Shown here one piece after another: positions 3,146-8,767 of a DNA stretch of 64,000 nt. The position numbers and the translations under genes were made by a program. Source of the stretch: Rhodothermia bacterium (lineage in GTDB: Bacteria; Bacteroidota; Rhodothermia; Balneolales; Balneolaceae); the NCBI GenBank assembly GCA_030427885.1, contig JAUICM010000003.1, forward strand, positions 248,001 to 312,000. The letters are read 5' to 3'. The stretch's first letter is position 1. Each line of letters begins with the position of its first letter. A model generated the notes under the pieces. The model worked only from the letters and a program-made list of their open reading frames with translations, had not been told where the DNA came from and searched no databases.

Positions 3146-3643
3146 ATGGAACCACAAATATATATCCTGGTTGTTGAAGATGAGCTCGAAGTTATGGATG
3201 CTCTCGTGAATGATCTTGAAAAGTTCGAAGATACTTTTCCGGTCGAAACTGCGAATACTTCAGAAGAAGCAAAGCGTGTTACAGAACAGATTTACGAATC
3301 GGGAGGTGAAGTTGGACTGATTCTTTGTGATCATGTACTACCCGGTGAAAATGGGGTAGACTTCCTGATTTCGTTGCAAAGTGACGATCGTTCACAAAAA
3401 TCACGAAAAGTTCTTGTAACTGGTCAGGCTGGTCTGGAAGACACAATTCAGGCCATCAATAATGCCGACCTGAATTACTATATTGCCAAACCATGGACAC
3501 GGGAGAAACTCCATGAAGTGGTAGTAGATGAATTAACTGAGTACGTTATAAAACAAGAATACGATCCTATGAAGTTCATGTCGGTTTTGGATAGTATCCG
3601 GCTAGCTGATGTGATCAGAAGTGGGCGTATTACGGATCGATAA
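3146..3643 (+). CDS. Single-domain response regulator
   Basis: A 165-residue CheY-like receiver with no DNA-binding or enzymatic output domain. The acidic pair is at E11/D12, the phosphoacceptor is Asp62 in LILCDHVLPGENG, the switch Thr is T92 in VLVTGQ, and the conserved Lys is K115 in a KPW variant of the KP motif. About 35 residues follow the receiver and match no known output domain. It ends 1 nt before the histidine kinase, so the two are almost certainly a cognate pair. Signal output is probably by protein contact or a phosphorelay. Confidence 0.9.
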   Translation: MEPQIYILVVEDELEVMDALVNDLEKFEDTFPVETANTSEEAKRVTEQIYESGGEVGLILCDHVLPGENGVDFLISLQSDDRSQKSRKVLVTGQAGLEDTIQAINNADLNYYIAKPWTREKLHEVVVDELTEYVIKQEYDPMKFMSVLDSIRLADVIRSGRITDR

Positions 3644-3644
3644 C

Positions 3645-5069
3645 ATGAAAAAAGGCACGATCATAAATGACCGGGACGTTACGCTGCGATTTATTCGTCG
3701 TGCCATTGATGAAACCGAAGAACTCCGCGAGCATGTAGTAAGCTTTGATAAAGATGAAGTTCTTTTTGAGCAGGGATGCAATCTCCATCACTTATATCTG
3801 CTCCTTGAGGGTTCTGTCCGCCTTAACCGTATGAATAAAGACGGAACCTCTCTTGATCTGCTTACCCTCGAAAATGGACACTATGTAGGTCTTGTCGCTT
3901 TTGCGACCGGGAATAAATCTATCACTTCAGCCATTGCAAATGAACATACCTCTGCACTGAAAATAGAACAAGGTGAATTTGAGCAGTACATGAATGATCA
4001 CCCCCGTCTGAGTCACCCTCTGCAACAGCTAATGGTGAGTAATATGACTGAGCGTTTTATGAAGAATGTGGTTCTGGAATCCAAAATGCATTCTTTAAAT
4101 AAAGAACTCGAACAAGAAGGGGAACAACTAAAAAAGGCGTATCAGCAACTGGAGGAATCACATCAAAAACTGGTTCATCAGGAAAAAATGGCCACTTTGG
4201 GAGAACTGGTCGCGGGTTTTGCCCATGAAGTAAATAATCCGGCGGCAGCACTCCTGCGTTCTTCAGAAGCATTGAAGGAGAATTTTCTGAACCTGGAACA
4301 ATCTGACCCTCGTGCAGCTATTTTCAGTATTGGCCTTGATTCAGAGCCCCTGAGCAGCGATGAGCAACGGAAACGAATGATTGAAATTCACAATAGATTT
4401 CCATGGGTTGCTGAGCGATCTACTATCCGTAAGCTGGCACAAATGCCTGATTCTGCTCACAAGATCATTCAGGAAAACCGAAAGAAAATTCCTATTGAAA
4501 CACTTACACAGCAGTTTGAAGCCGGTAAATTCATCCACAACATTCAGGTGGCAAGCGAACGCATTGCCAATCTGGTTCGGAGCCTCAAAAGCTACAGCCG
4601 ACAAGATAACAACGAAGCCGAAATGATGGATATACGGGAAGGAATCAAGGATACTATTCTTATTCTTACTAACCGGCTGAAATTTCTGGATGTAACACTG
4701 GACCTCAAAGAAATTCCTAGCACATGTGGCAAACTCGGTGAATTGAACCAGGTCTGGACCAATATCATCGTAAATGCCTGCGATGTGCTTGAAAATGGAG
4801 GTAAACTTAGCATTTCCACATATTCTGAAGGGGATTACAAGATTGTAGTAGCTATCTCTGACAACGGTCCCGGCATCCCCCCCGAAATACTGCCACGTAT
4901 TTTTGAACCTAATTTCACCACTAAAAATCAAGGAGCCGAATTTGGCCTCGGCCTTGGGTTGGCAATCTCAAATGAGATCATTCGTCAGCATGGCGGATTC
5001 ATCAAAGCGAGTAATAAAGAAGAGGGTGGTGCCTGCTTCAAGATCATACTACCTGTTAAGGACTGCTGA
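3645..5069 (+). CDS. Soluble histidine kinase with N-terminal cyclic-nucleotide-binding-like domain
   Basis: I place the start at the ATG at 3645 (MKKGTI...), just after the upstream stop, not at the GTG at 3621, which would overlap the regulator gene by 23 nt. The 474-residue protein has a cNMP-binding-like barrel (about residues 30-135), a helical linker with coiled-coil character (about 140-180), an H-box with the probable phosphoacceptor His194 (GFAHEVNNP), and a HATPase domain with N-box NIIVNACDVL, G1 DNGPGIP and G2 GLGLGLAIS. No transmembrane segment is seen, so it should sense a cytosolic signal. The barrel lacks an obvious canonical phosphate-binding cassette, so the ligand is uncertain. 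Confidence 0.85.
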   Translation: MKKGTIINDRDVTLRFIRRAIDETEELREHVVSFDKDEVLFEQGCNLHHLYLLLEGSVRLNRMNKDGTSLDLLTLENGHYVGLVAFATGNKSITSAIANEHTSALKIEQGEFEQYMNDHPRLSHPLQQLMVSNMTERFMKNVVLESKMHSLNKELEQEGEQLKKAYQQLEESHQKLVHQEKMATLGELVAGFAHEVNNPAAALLRSSEALKENFLNLEQSDPRAAIFSIGLDSEPLSSDEQRKRMIEIHNRFPWVAERSTIRKLAQMPDSAHKIIQENRKKIPIETLTQQFEAGKFIHNIQVASERIANLVRSLKSYSRQDNNEAEMMDIREGIKDTILILTNRLKFLDVTLDLKEIPSTCGKLGELNQVWTNIIVNACDVLENGGKLSISTYSEGDYKIVVAISDNGPGIPPEILPRIFEPNFTTKNQGAEFGLGLGLAISNEIIRQHGGFIKASNKEEGGACFKIILPVKDC

Positions 5070-5190: not shown

Positions 5191-5652
5191 TTGAGTCGAG
5201 CTAAACAGACATATCGATCCCTAATAGCCATTATGAGTATTTGTGTGATGCTCTGGAATATCTTTGGCTGGACTGCCCTTGAGATGGCAAAAGAACACAT
5301 GCATCATGAGAACAGCTATTGCAGTATCGGGTATTGTACGTGTAAGGTTGAAGATGGAGTTTCCATCTGTACCTGTCACCACCATGAACTGCGAGCTAGA
5401 AATGCAGACGATGTAAATGACGGTCTTAATATCTCGGATGCTGATGACACCATTAACGTCTGTTACTTTGAGAAACCTCATCAGAAACCAAAAGAAACAC
5501 TTACTGTAGCCTCCTTTACTGAGATAAAGGCTTTTTTCTATGAAAAAGCAATTGAACCGGGCTTTACAGAACTTCCTTCACAAACCGGTTATATAGACGT
5601 CTTTCCCGGCAACAGCCATGTAGACGACCTTTTCCGCCCTCCCCAGGTGTAG
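5191..5652 (+). CDS. Cys/His-rich exported small protein of a copper-type cluster
   Basis: A 153-residue protein I cannot assign to a named family. The likely start is TTG at 5191, directly after a stop; it supplies basic residues (R3, K5, R8) before a hydrophobic stretch (about 10-33), giving a plausible signal peptide or membrane anchor. ATG at 5233 is the alternative but loses those charges. Just after the hydrophobic stretch are HMHH, then Cys residues in CSIGYCTC and ICTCHHHE, a dense soft-metal ligand pattern. The Met/His lipoprotein and OprC-like receptor follow 50 nt after each gene, so copper sensing or binding is a reasonable inference. The start codon is uncertain. Confidence 0.65.
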   Translation: MSRAKQTYRSLIAIMSICVMLWNIFGWTALEMAKEHMHHENSYCSIGYCTCKVEDGVSICTCHHHELRARNADDVNDGLNISDADDTINVCYFEKPHQKPKETLTVASFTEIKAFFYEKAIEPGFTELPSQTGYIDVFPGNSHVDDLFRPPQV

Positions 5653-5702
5653 TTTTCTTTCCCCGGATTTAAAAGAAAACCAAACACCTAATTCATATAA
5701 CT

Positions 5703-6509
5703 ATGTTTAAGAATTCTATTCTAAAGAATATTTCTATTGTATTACTATTAACCGTTGTAGCTATTTCCTGTGATGATAGCGGCAGCGATAATCCTGAACT
5801 TGAAGCAACTCCGATCGTTACCACTATGATCGATGGCTACCAGGTAGAACTCCTATCTGACAACGACCTGAGAACCGGATACAACAACCTTTACTGGAAG
5901 ATCACCAAAGACGGATCTTCTGTTGATATTGCACAGATCTCAGCAATGCCAATGATGCACATGACCCAAATGAGTCATTCCTGCCCATATACAAGCCCTG
6001 AAATGATGGAGGAGTTCAGTGATTACTACCAAAGCTCTGTAAACTTCATTATGCCTTCAGGTGAAATGGGCTCCTGGGATATCATGCTTGAATTCACTAC
6101 TTCGGATGACATGACTGTATCTGGTACTGTAGATATCGAAGTTGAATCATCATGGATGATCACCAGTGCTCAAAGTGGCGATGGTAATACATACTTCATA
6201 ACCTGGTATGCACCAACCAGTCCAAAAACTGGCAATCAGGATCTGAAATTCATGGTACACAAAAGAGAAAACATGATGTCATTCCCAGCTGTGGACGATG
6301 CTGAACTATCGGTATATCCATTCATGGATATGGGTGGTGGAGAAGGCCATTCTACTCAGTTCGAAACTCCTACCACAAAAGGGGATGGAATGTATGAAGG
6401 CTCCATTAATTATAGCATGAGCGGAACCTGGACCACCGAAGTACAGGTCATGACCAGCACGGATACAACTTCTGCTGTTACCTTCGAGTACAGCGTAATA
6501 GCTCAGTAA
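5703..6509 (+). CDS. Met/His-rich lipoprotein, YtkA/FixH-like
   Basis: A 268-residue protein with a lipoprotein signal: hydrophobic segment then VAISC, with Cys23 as the acylated residue. It shows two beta-sandwich-like halves; each ends with a strand set such as SGTWDI/SGTW-TEVQV, as in YtkA-like/FixH proteins. The first half carries PMMHMTQMSHSC near residues 82-93 and further Met clusters (SPEMMEEF, MMSF, MDMGGG), typical of Cu(I) ligands. It lies between the Cys/His-rich protein and the OprC-like receptor. A periplasmic or surface copper-binding partner for the receptor is inferred, not shown. Confidence 0.7.
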   Translation: MFKNSILKNISIVLLLTVVAISCDDSGSDNPELEATPIVTTMIDGYQVELLSDNDLRTGYNNLYWKITKDGSSVDIAQISAMPMMHMTQMSHSCPYTSPEMMEEFSDYYQSSVNFIMPSGEMGSWDIMLEFTTSDDMTVSGTVDIEVESSWMITSAQSGDGNTYFITWYAPTSPKTGNQDLKFMVHKRENMMSFPAVDDAELSVYPFMDMGGGEGHSTQFETPTTKGDGMYEGSINYSMSGTWTTEVQVMTSTDTTSAVTFEYSVIAQ

Positions 6510-6559
6510 TCTTTCAAAGATCCGGGACAGGTGAACGCCTGTCCCGGCATTTTAACATT

Positions 6560-8767
6560 ATGAAGATCTTAAAGCTCTTACTGTTTATTAGCCTGATTTC
6601 ATCTGTCGTTTCTAATGCACAGGACAAAACTCTGTATGTTTTCGACTCAATGAAGAAAACTCCTCTACAGGATGTCCATATCATGGATGCATCATCAATG
6701 ATCGGCTATACCGATTCTGATGGATCTGTTTCTGTTCCTTCTGATATCCGGGATCTCACCATCCATTTTGTGGGGTACAGAACATTGAAATTTTCCATGA
6801 CCCAGCGAGTTGATACAGCCTATCTGGTATCGGCTGTATATCAGATGCAGGACGAATTGGTGGTATATGCAGGCGATATGGGCGAACCTGATGTTAGAGA
6901 CTACAACAATAATTCATCCCATCTCACCCTCGACCGTATGCTGAATAATGTGGATGGAGTCTCAATGATCCAGCGGGGTGCATTTGCCTGGGAACCAACG
7001 ATTCGTGGTCTTGATGATCAGCGTATCAATCTCACTATTGATGGCATGCAGGTCTTTAAGGCCTGTGTGGATAAGATGGATCCGGTGACCGCTTACGTGG
7101 AAAGCGATAATCTTTCAAAACTAGAGATCGACAAGAGTGGTACGGGTGTTGCTGAAAATGGAAATGGTAAATCCAGTATCAATCTGGTTACTAAAAAACC
7201 TGACTTTGCTCCATTCAAGTTCAATATCAAATCCGGACTTCGATATCCCGATTATTACAGAGTACTGGCCGTTAATTCCGATATTTCAAAAGGAAATCAC
7301 GCAATTCGTTTCTCTGGGAGTATTAAACAAGCTGATAACCTTGTTGCTGGAAATGACTCTACTATCAATAACTCGGGCTTCAATAAAGTTAACCTGAATC
7401 TGGCGTACAGGCTCAGAACTCCTTCCAGAAATGTATTGGATGTGAACTACATCTTTGATGATGCCCGTAACGTTGGATATCCGGCATTGCTAATGGATGC
7501 AACCCGTGCTCTGGCCAACATGCTGCGGGTACAGTATAGCTGGATGAATGAAAATTCTGATATCCCAACTACTTCACTGTTGGTATACGGAAATGTTATA
7601 AACCATCAGATGGATGATTATAGCAGAGATGTGGCCAACCGTCCCGTTATGCGAAATATGCATATGCCTATGGATGGAAACACCAACACAGCTGGACTTA
7701 AACTTAGCCGTAATCTTTACATCCGTAATCAACCAACATCGTTGTTTGTGGAAGGATACCTTTCCAAAGCTTTTGGTGATATGAAGATGGAAAGTCTGTT
7801 CGACATACCGGACATGTATATTACCAACCTCGGTGATATTTATACCGGAAGTGCCCGCATTGGTGCTAAATCCAGTTTCTCGCTTTCCAACTCGTTGCTG
7901 CTAAAGCTGGAAGAAAGCCTAGAGTTTAACAGAGTGGAACTAACCAATGATGGAAACAGATCCTTTTTTGAAGGACTCTATGGAAAGGAAGTAAATCCGC
8001 GAGCGAGGTTTTTGTTTTCAAGTTCAGCAAATCTGTTTTGGTTCCCCACAACGGAAAACCTGAACTTCAGCTTTAAAGCTGTGTATTCTCAGCGACAGGC
8101 AAACTACATTGAGCTGTACGGGCATTATATCTACAACTATGTTGATGGCTATTTCTATGATGGAAATCCCTTCCTCAATCCGGAAACTACTCTGAACCTA
8201 GAGGTGGGCTCACAATACCAGATCGCCGATAATGCACTTTCAGTATCTGTGTATTACAAGCAAATGTACCAATACATATCCGGTATCATTGATGGAAGCA
8301 TTTCAAACCAGTTCTTCCAGTTCAAACGGTATGAGAATGTAGGGGATGTATACATGACGGGCTTTGAACTAAGGTGGCTTCGAAACTGGAGTAACTCTTT
8401 TTCCAGCGATGTGAGAACAGCTTATACCTACGCCCAGAATACAACTCTTAATGAACCCCTTCCACTGATCCCTCCTTTGCATGGATCAGTAAGTACCTCG
8501 TATGCTGGCAAAGGATTTTCCCTTTCAGGAATTCTTGAATGGGCAACCGAGCAATCAAGGATCGCCAATCAAACAACCATTGAAGACCAAACGGATTCCT
8601 TTGCAGTTCTGAATTTTGAGCTAAGCCGGAAATGGCTGAATAATAGTCTGCGTTCAACGCTCAGTGTGCACAATGTGTTTGACCATTACTACAATCAACA
8701 CACCAGCATTGGCAATATCCCCGAGAGCGGGCGAAGTTTTATGCTTACTCTCACTTATGATCTTTAA
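6560..8767 (+). CDS. TonB-dependent receptor, OprC/NosA-type copper receptor
   Basis: A 735-residue receptor with a signal peptide (cleavage near SNAQ), a short carboxypeptidase-regulatory-like domain (about 22-95), a plug domain (about 110-215) and a 22-strand-type barrel ending in LTLTYDL. The key feature is the plug motif KACVDKMDP, whose Cys169 and Met173 form the CxxxM arrangement known from Pseudomonas OprC. In addition NHQMDDYS puts His349 and Met351 in the OprC HxM position, and a Met/His patch (M367 to M371) follows. The gene is the last of a three-gene set with two metal-ligand-rich exported proteins. Copper uptake is therefore the best call. Confidence 0.82.
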   Translation: MKILKLLLFISLISSVVSNAQDKTLYVFDSMKKTPLQDVHIMDASSMIGYTDSDGSVSVPSDIRDLTIHFVGYRTLKFSMTQRVDTAYLVSAVYQMQDELVVYAGDMGEPDVRDYNNNSSHLTLDRMLNNVDGVSMIQRGAFAWEPTIRGLDDQRINLTIDGMQVFKACVDKMDPVTAYVESDNLSKLEIDKSGTGVAENGNGKSSINLVTKKPDFAPFKFNIKSGLRYPDYYRVLAVNSDISKGNHAIRFSGSIKQADNLVAGNDSTINNSGFNKVNLNLAYRLRTPSRNVLDVNYIFDDARNVGYPALLMDATRALANMLRVQYSWMNENSDIPTTSLLVYGNVINHQMDDYSRDVANRPVMRNMHMPMDGNTNTAGLKLSRNLYIRNQPTSLFVEGYLSKAFGDMKMESLFDIPDMYITNLGDIYTGSARIGAKSSFSLSNSLLLKLEESLEFNRVELTNDGNRSFFEGLYGKEVNPRARFLFSSSANLFWFPTTENLNFSFKAVYSQRQANYIELYGHYIYNYVDGYFYDGNPFLNPETTLNLEVGSQYQIADNALSVSVYYKQMYQYISGIIDGSISNQFFQFKRYENVGDVYMTGFELRWLRNWSNSFSSDVRTAYTYAQNTTLNEPLPLIPPLHGSVSTSYAGKGFSLSGILEWATEQSRIANQTTIEDQTDSFAVLNFELSRKWLNNSLRSTLSVHNVFDHYYNQHTSIGNIPESGRSFMLTLTYDL

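Follow-up and report, generated by a model that had tools for sequence, protein, structure and literature searches.

A likely copper-acquisition operon of Balneolaceae with an OprC-type receptor and a candidate copper-sensing leader

How copper passes the outer membrane of Gram-negative bacteria outside the Proteobacteria is largely unknown, and many of these bacteria reduce nitrous oxide (N2O) with the copper-rich enzyme NosZ. The closest described receptors are OprC of Pseudomonas aeruginosa and NosA of P. stutzeri (PMC8610252). A receptor of this type was reported directly from Bacteroidota in Bizionia argentinensis (G2EC70), where it carries the CxxxM-HxM motif pair and was named a likely copper importer (PMC11213822); that paper makes no mention of YtkA, nosZ, or NosA, and leader and lipoprotein partners lie outside its relevant passages. 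Among regulators, CruR (DUF2946) heads the bfrG/crtA operon of Bordetella pertussis, and copper binding to its nascent chain relieves a stall at the sequence RAPP and switches the receptor gene off (PMC9426467); the arrest was shown in vitro, with the ribosomal P and A sites occupied by the two prolines (PMC12992588). CutF of Rhodobacter capsulatus is a nascent copper sensor whose stall opens a stem-loop over the start of the next gene (PMC9973294). Here, we describe a three-gene locus in a window of 64,000 nucleotides (nt) from a Rhodothermia bacterium of the Balneolaceae (contig JAUICM010000003.1, positions 248,001–312,000), consisting of a small upstream open reading frame (ORF; hereafter, the leader), a lipoprotein gene, and a TonB-dependent receptor gene. 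We think it fairly likely that this locus is a copper-acquisition operon under attenuation control by a copper-sensing leader, a reading for which homology, motif register, gene linkage, Pro-Pro placement, and hairpin enrichment provide the computed support.

The three ORFs lie on the forward strand with a 50-nt gap at each junction, and their coordinates agree with those of an earlier, sequence-only reading of the window (leader: 5191–5652, 153 aa, TTG start; lipoprotein: 5703–6509, 268 aa; receptor: 6560–8767, 735 aa). That reading took all three products for a copper-uptake set; the OprC-type receptor with its copper-domain lipoprotein stands, whereas for the first gene we favour the role of an upstream ORF that senses copper. 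Plug and barrel domains were found in the receptor using Pfam, and its best NCBIfam model is TonB-copper (TIGR01778, 141 bits). The top sequence match in a phmmer search of the PDB is OprC (6fok, E 2.6e-16), and the alignment, for which no motifs were supplied, sets KACVDKMD over OprC GACPNRMD and NHQMDD over DHIMDN. The CxxxM half of the copper site (C169/M173; 7064–7078) thereby falls over C143/M147 of OprC and the HxM half (H349/M351; 7604–7612) over H323/M325. These are the two motifs that had been picked out from the letters (KACVDKMDP and NHQMDDY), and the comparison with OprC that had been proposed puts OprC first by both sequence and predicted fold, with both motifs in register.

The four putative ligands, including the sole cysteine of the receptor (C169), are unchanged in 16/16 relatives and 38/38 aligned family members, and M312, M369, M371, M408, and M410 are likewise invariant in these 38 receptors. 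In the phmmer register, M312, M367, and M369 (conserved in 38/38, 28/38, and 38/38, respectively) align with the track residues Met286, Met341, and Met343, which bind silver in the OprC structure (PMC8610252). The AlphaFold2 (AF2) model of the receptor (mean predicted local distance difference test [pLDDT] 86) has OprC for all of its 28 best PDB fold matches (TMt 0.81–0.86), with heme and zinc receptors coming after. Sequence, fold, and motif register thus identify the product as probably an OprC-type copper receptor. It shares the fold, the CxxxM-HxM register, and part of the methionine track with OprC and NosA, but differs from them in its low identity (~18% in the fold alignment), an additional CarboxypepD_reg-like stretch at the N-terminus, and a YtkA lipoprotein partner. 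The kin of the source genome that carry the operon are Balneolaceae, and the closest named receptor record is from a Balneolaceae metagenome-assembled genome (68% identity). When plasmids were searched for OprC-type neighbours, the only matches were weak and partial. At two loci (L032:9278–11476 and L082:7235–9541), a second TonB receptor with the same profile match lies directly after the copper receptor in opposite orientation.

The lipoprotein matches YtkA (PF13115) above the Pfam gathering score (48.4 versus 25.9 bits) with two stretches, and no other YtkA protein was found in the genome. Fold matches of its AF2 model (pLDDT 93.8) are mostly generic Ig-like, and the Helicobacter copper protein CrdA fits one of the two YtkA/CrdA-like, Ig-fold domains (TMt 0.71). 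The product is Met/His-rich, as described earlier from sequence; its lipobox Cys (position 23) is conserved in 85/87 lipoproteins, and its invariant residues include P95, W125, M208, H216, M239, and W243. CrdA of Helicobacter pylori and YtkA/CtaK of Bacillus subtilis are likewise envelope proteins with a copper domain of the YtkA type; CtaK has been implicated in CuA assembly (PMC13344008). Unlike these proteins, the window lipoprotein has two tandem domains and is linked to an outer-membrane receptor.

Gene linkage was compared across 91 non-redundant receptor loci, 88 of which contain both copper-motif halves as found by pattern. The lipoprotein gene adjoins the receptor gene in 85 of the 86 loci with enough flanking sequence (automatic count: 83/86, plus L074 and L082 from the locus listing), mostly from Bacteroidota and related phyla; it precedes the receptor gene, and in some flavobacteria follows it. 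The OprC-type receptor and copper-domain lipoprotein are therefore kept together across the FCB (Fibrobacterota, Chlorobiota, and Bacteroidota) group, in line with the co-occurrence check that the earlier reading had proposed, and this conserved putative import module, often beside nos genes, offers concrete candidates for outer-membrane copper entry. Because neither an inner-membrane importer nor a TonB system is encoded at the locus, the term ‘self-contained’ used previously for the uptake set was too strong. Leaders from either of two modelled families were found in 61 of 83 receptor loci, and the Balneolaceae type always precedes the lipoprotein-receptor pair in Balneolaceae. Operons are longer at L034:6706–8612 and L032:5019–5981, where MbnP and/or a di-haem CCP_MauG protein (an MbnPH-like pair) directly precede the lipoprotein and receptor. 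Contig G187:C1 shows one and the same locus close to each of its ends (10055 and 3732739) with identical match scores, which likely reflects an unclosed circular overlap and not a duplication.

The leader matches no Pfam or NCBIfam family. It combines an N-terminal hydrophobic segment (starting at residue 12; mean Kyte-Doolittle hydropathy 1.86 over 19 residues) with a Cys/His cluster (H36–H64 and C91; pattern C-x4-C-x-C ... C-x-C-H-H), which bears out its earlier description as Cys/His-rich, and with the tail FRPPQV. Eight leader homologues (147–158 aa) share the hydrophobic N-terminus, the cluster residues H38, C44, C49, C51, C60, C62, H63, H64, and C91, and the pair P150-P151; the stretch between cluster and tail is barely conserved. 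The Pro-Pro codons (5638–5643), the proposed stall site, lie two codons 5' of the stop codon and are invariant (8/8 homologues), with (R/K)PP two or three residues from the end in every case.

In other Bacteroidota, a second family of small ORFs occupies the corresponding slot, with the motif C-x9-C-x-G-x-C and a Pro-Pro near the C-terminus in 58/58 members (mostly 2–5 residues from the end). Its distance from Cys motif to Pro-Pro is 62–72 residues (67 ± 2.7, n = 58); the CruR spacing is 45 residues, held within one or two (PMC9426467). Pro-Pro occurs in the last 12 residues of 8/150 unselected genes, a background that may itself include leaders, and of 0/87 lipoproteins, although these counts are not independent draws because leader family members are related by descent. 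A third Cys motif (CCCSG...GCC) marks a small ORF before the lipoprotein at five loci (L057, L059, L060, L068, and L077), four of which (all except L059) have a Pro-Pro tail (KPPQ or GPPE). Leader types with differing Cys motifs thus replace one another in the same slot. In a phylum search with the second family, the genes that it heads were those for MbnP (PF20243), further TonB receptors, and a barrel protein; the Pro-Pro tail is kept there, and this family may mark a cis-controlled copper regulon. Its members stand before MbnP/TonB-receptor operons Bacteroidota-wide (L131–L160, e.g., L137, L149, and L159). Since the front position is kept while the genes behind change, the small ORF is regulator-like.

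The stop codon of the leader lies within a predicted hairpin (5645–5689), in which AGGTGT-A-GTTTTCTTT (5' arm, 5645–5660, holding the stop TAG at 5650–5652) pairs with AAAGAAAAC-CAA-ACACCT (3' arm, 5672–5689) around a loop at 5661–5671. The 3' arm ends 13 nt before the lipoprotein start, and in the G187 genome the helix is retained with an altered pair (GTGT/ACAC to GTAT/ATAC). A hairpin was counted when the minimum-energy fold had a helix of 12 or more pairs between the stop region and the 50 nt that precede the next start; the controls were 123 other pairs of same-strand genes, 35–120 nt apart. Such hairpins were found at 11/13 Balneolaceae loci compared to 11/123 control pairs (Fisher 1e-8), at 9/11 Balneolaceae loci without near-duplicates (Fisher 3e-7), and at 15/32 loci of the second leader family (Fisher 4e-6), in a test that was chosen after hairpins had been seen, with a post hoc 12-pair threshold and related loci. 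A first duplex test gave mean z values of -2.4 for Balneolaceae leaders, -0.9 for the second family, and -0.5 for controls, with mixed per-locus scores, and a mismatched-partner test, which shares composition effects, agrees with the hairpin pairing.

By analogy with CruR and CutF, we take the leader to be probably an upstream ORF that senses copper, because its few conserved parts include a terminal Pro-Pro, its stop codon sits in a hairpin reaching the lipoprotein start, and its equivalents head unrelated copper-linked operons. It resembles CruR (PMC9426467) in heading a copper-related TonB-receptor operon and in its Cys motif and Pro-Pro near the stop, and its N-terminal hydrophobic segment may correspond to the CruR export signal; the (R/K)PP of Balneolaceae leaders occupies the same place as the CruR RAPP, three residues from the end, with different residues. 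The differences are another Cys/His cluster, a tail of RPP (or HPP, TPPP) versus RAPP, and a short gap with a stop-codon hairpin versus a long Rho-terminated region. Assignment to DUF2946/CruR itself was rejected: PF11162 is unmatched in Pfam by the window leader, as by 26 second-family members, the cluster has no CXXC, and the tail is not RAPP. Under the rules of the CutF-like survey (PMC9973294), the leader qualifies by its Pro-Pro within 15 residues of the C-terminus and a same-strand gene within 1000 nt. That survey listed 5,334 CutF-like proteins (19–40% from Bacteroidota), with TonB proteins among the frequent neighbours overall, and removed proteins >150 aa, so the 153-aa window leader fails its filter, whereas several 147–149-aa homologues would pass on length. 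CutF turns the next gene on with copper, the reverse of what an importer needs (PMC9973294). The leader would thus join a CruR-like place and logic with a CutF-like geometry.

From these features we infer that copper is transported, that the leader binds it and stalls, and which way the switch works. The receptor would bind ionic copper at the CxxxM-HxM site, fed by the methionine track, and TonB energy would drive it across the outer membrane, as with OprC. The YtkA/CrdA-like domains of the lipoprotein may receive or store periplasmic copper and pass it to copper enzymes, and the leader would act in cis as a regulator. When copper is scarce, a ribosome would stall at the Arg-Pro-Pro of the leader before the stop codon; judging from footprint size, a pause with these prolines (P150-P151) in its P and A sites would leave the stop codon and a large part of the 5' arm beneath it. 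The stop-codon hairpin then could not form, and the lipoprotein start, hence the operon, would be translated. Copper on the Cys/His cluster of the nascent leader would relieve the stall, allowing the hairpin to form and importer expression to fall.

Several results weigh against this reading. The receptor falls far below the curated TIGR01778 cut-off in the NCBIfam search (141 versus 472 bits), and therefore is a divergent OprC/NosA relative and not an equivalog member, and 22/83 receptor loci have no leader of either modelled family. Stalling has been shown for RAPP/RGPP, from which the tail FRPPQV differs, and copper-related members were reported missing from Bacteroidota in a survey of RAPP/RGPP leaders (both PMC12992588). 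The leader-lipoprotein gap (50 nt versus 162 nt for CruR) makes CruR-style Rho termination less likely. Hairpin scores at single loci are only modestly better than those of shuffles (p 0.02–0.4), and MAFFT/RNAalifold analysis of leader-lipoprotein junctions did not recover a consensus helix, because variable loops were misaligned in the MAFFT alignment.

Alternatively, all three products could form the copper-uptake set, with the first one exported, rich in Cys and His, and supplying the receptor or lipoprotein as a copper carrier or scavenger. Its constant position before the pair in Balneolaceae, its N-terminal hydrophobic segment, and a conserved Cys/His cluster putatively able to bind copper suit such a role, but we consider it unlikely: the half between cluster and tail is barely conserved while the terminal Pro-Pro is invariant, a hairpin that extends to the next start takes in the stop codon, operons without homology to one another begin with corresponding small ORFs, and leader types with other Cys motifs swap in the same slot. 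Moreover, CruR, the closest precedent, was not detected in proteomes (PMC9426467). The first gene as a working part of uptake was accordingly not upheld.

A dedicated copper supply for N2O reductase, as in a NosA system of the FCB group, is suggested by the nos genes that lie within about 5 kb in 27/91 receptor loci; at L036 and L037, a nos operon encloses the pair (NosZ, NosB, NosL, lipoprotein, receptor, NosD, NosF, and NosY). The nosZ gene scores above the cut-off in 11/16 genomes with a strong receptor match compared to 73/198 phylum-sample genomes overall, and in many relatives the copper recipient is probably N2O reductase. As the purpose of the operon, however, this is improbable, because most loci lie away from nos genes, OprC/NosA also occur in non-denitrifiers (PMC8610252), and nosZ was not found in the source genome (98.7% complete), G187, or G108, all of which carry the operon. 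For the source organism, a role in N2O reduction is ruled out by the missing nosZ, unless the gene lies in the unassembled part; a COX2 (CuA oxidase) gene is present there, and with nosZ absent, CuA cytochrome oxidase is the likeliest copper recipient. Import of another metal or metal chelate, such as zinc or heme, is very improbable: heme receptors and ZnuD come directly behind OprC among the fold and profile matches, but OprC comes first by sequence and fold, the four copper ligands are in register and invariant, and the partners (YtkA, MbnP-type, and Nos proteins) are all copper-linked.

Beyond attenuation control of this copper-acquisition operon, we propose more tentatively, at slightly less than even credence, a widespread FCB module of leader, YtkA lipoprotein, and OprC-type receptor that is governed by at least three Cys-motif families of copper-sensing arrest peptides sharing only the Pro-Pro tail. 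The Balneolaceae stop codon, placed in a hairpin arm gating the next gene, would then make up a copper-starvation switch that works through translation, unlike CruR, which uses Rho termination, and CutF, which turns on with copper. Each part of the module belongs to a known kind. The module itself appears undescribed, as do the leader family of Balneolaceae and the stop-codon hairpin, and no paper on these or on the nos linkage of the module was found among the open-access papers searched. If the leader senses copper, metal-sensing arrest peptides would extend to a large group reported to lack copper leaders of the RAPP type, and the hairpin would serve as a simple readout.

The operon is flanked on its 5' side by genes for a symporter, a response regulator, and a histidine kinase with a cyclic nucleotide monophosphate (cNMP)-binding domain, and on its 3' side by a RecQ helicase gene on the opposite strand. 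The response regulator and cNMP-binding histidine kinase (3146–5069) also adjoin the operon in G187 (L026) and are not beside it in the other Balneolaceae loci inspected; they are therefore probably unrelated to the operon.

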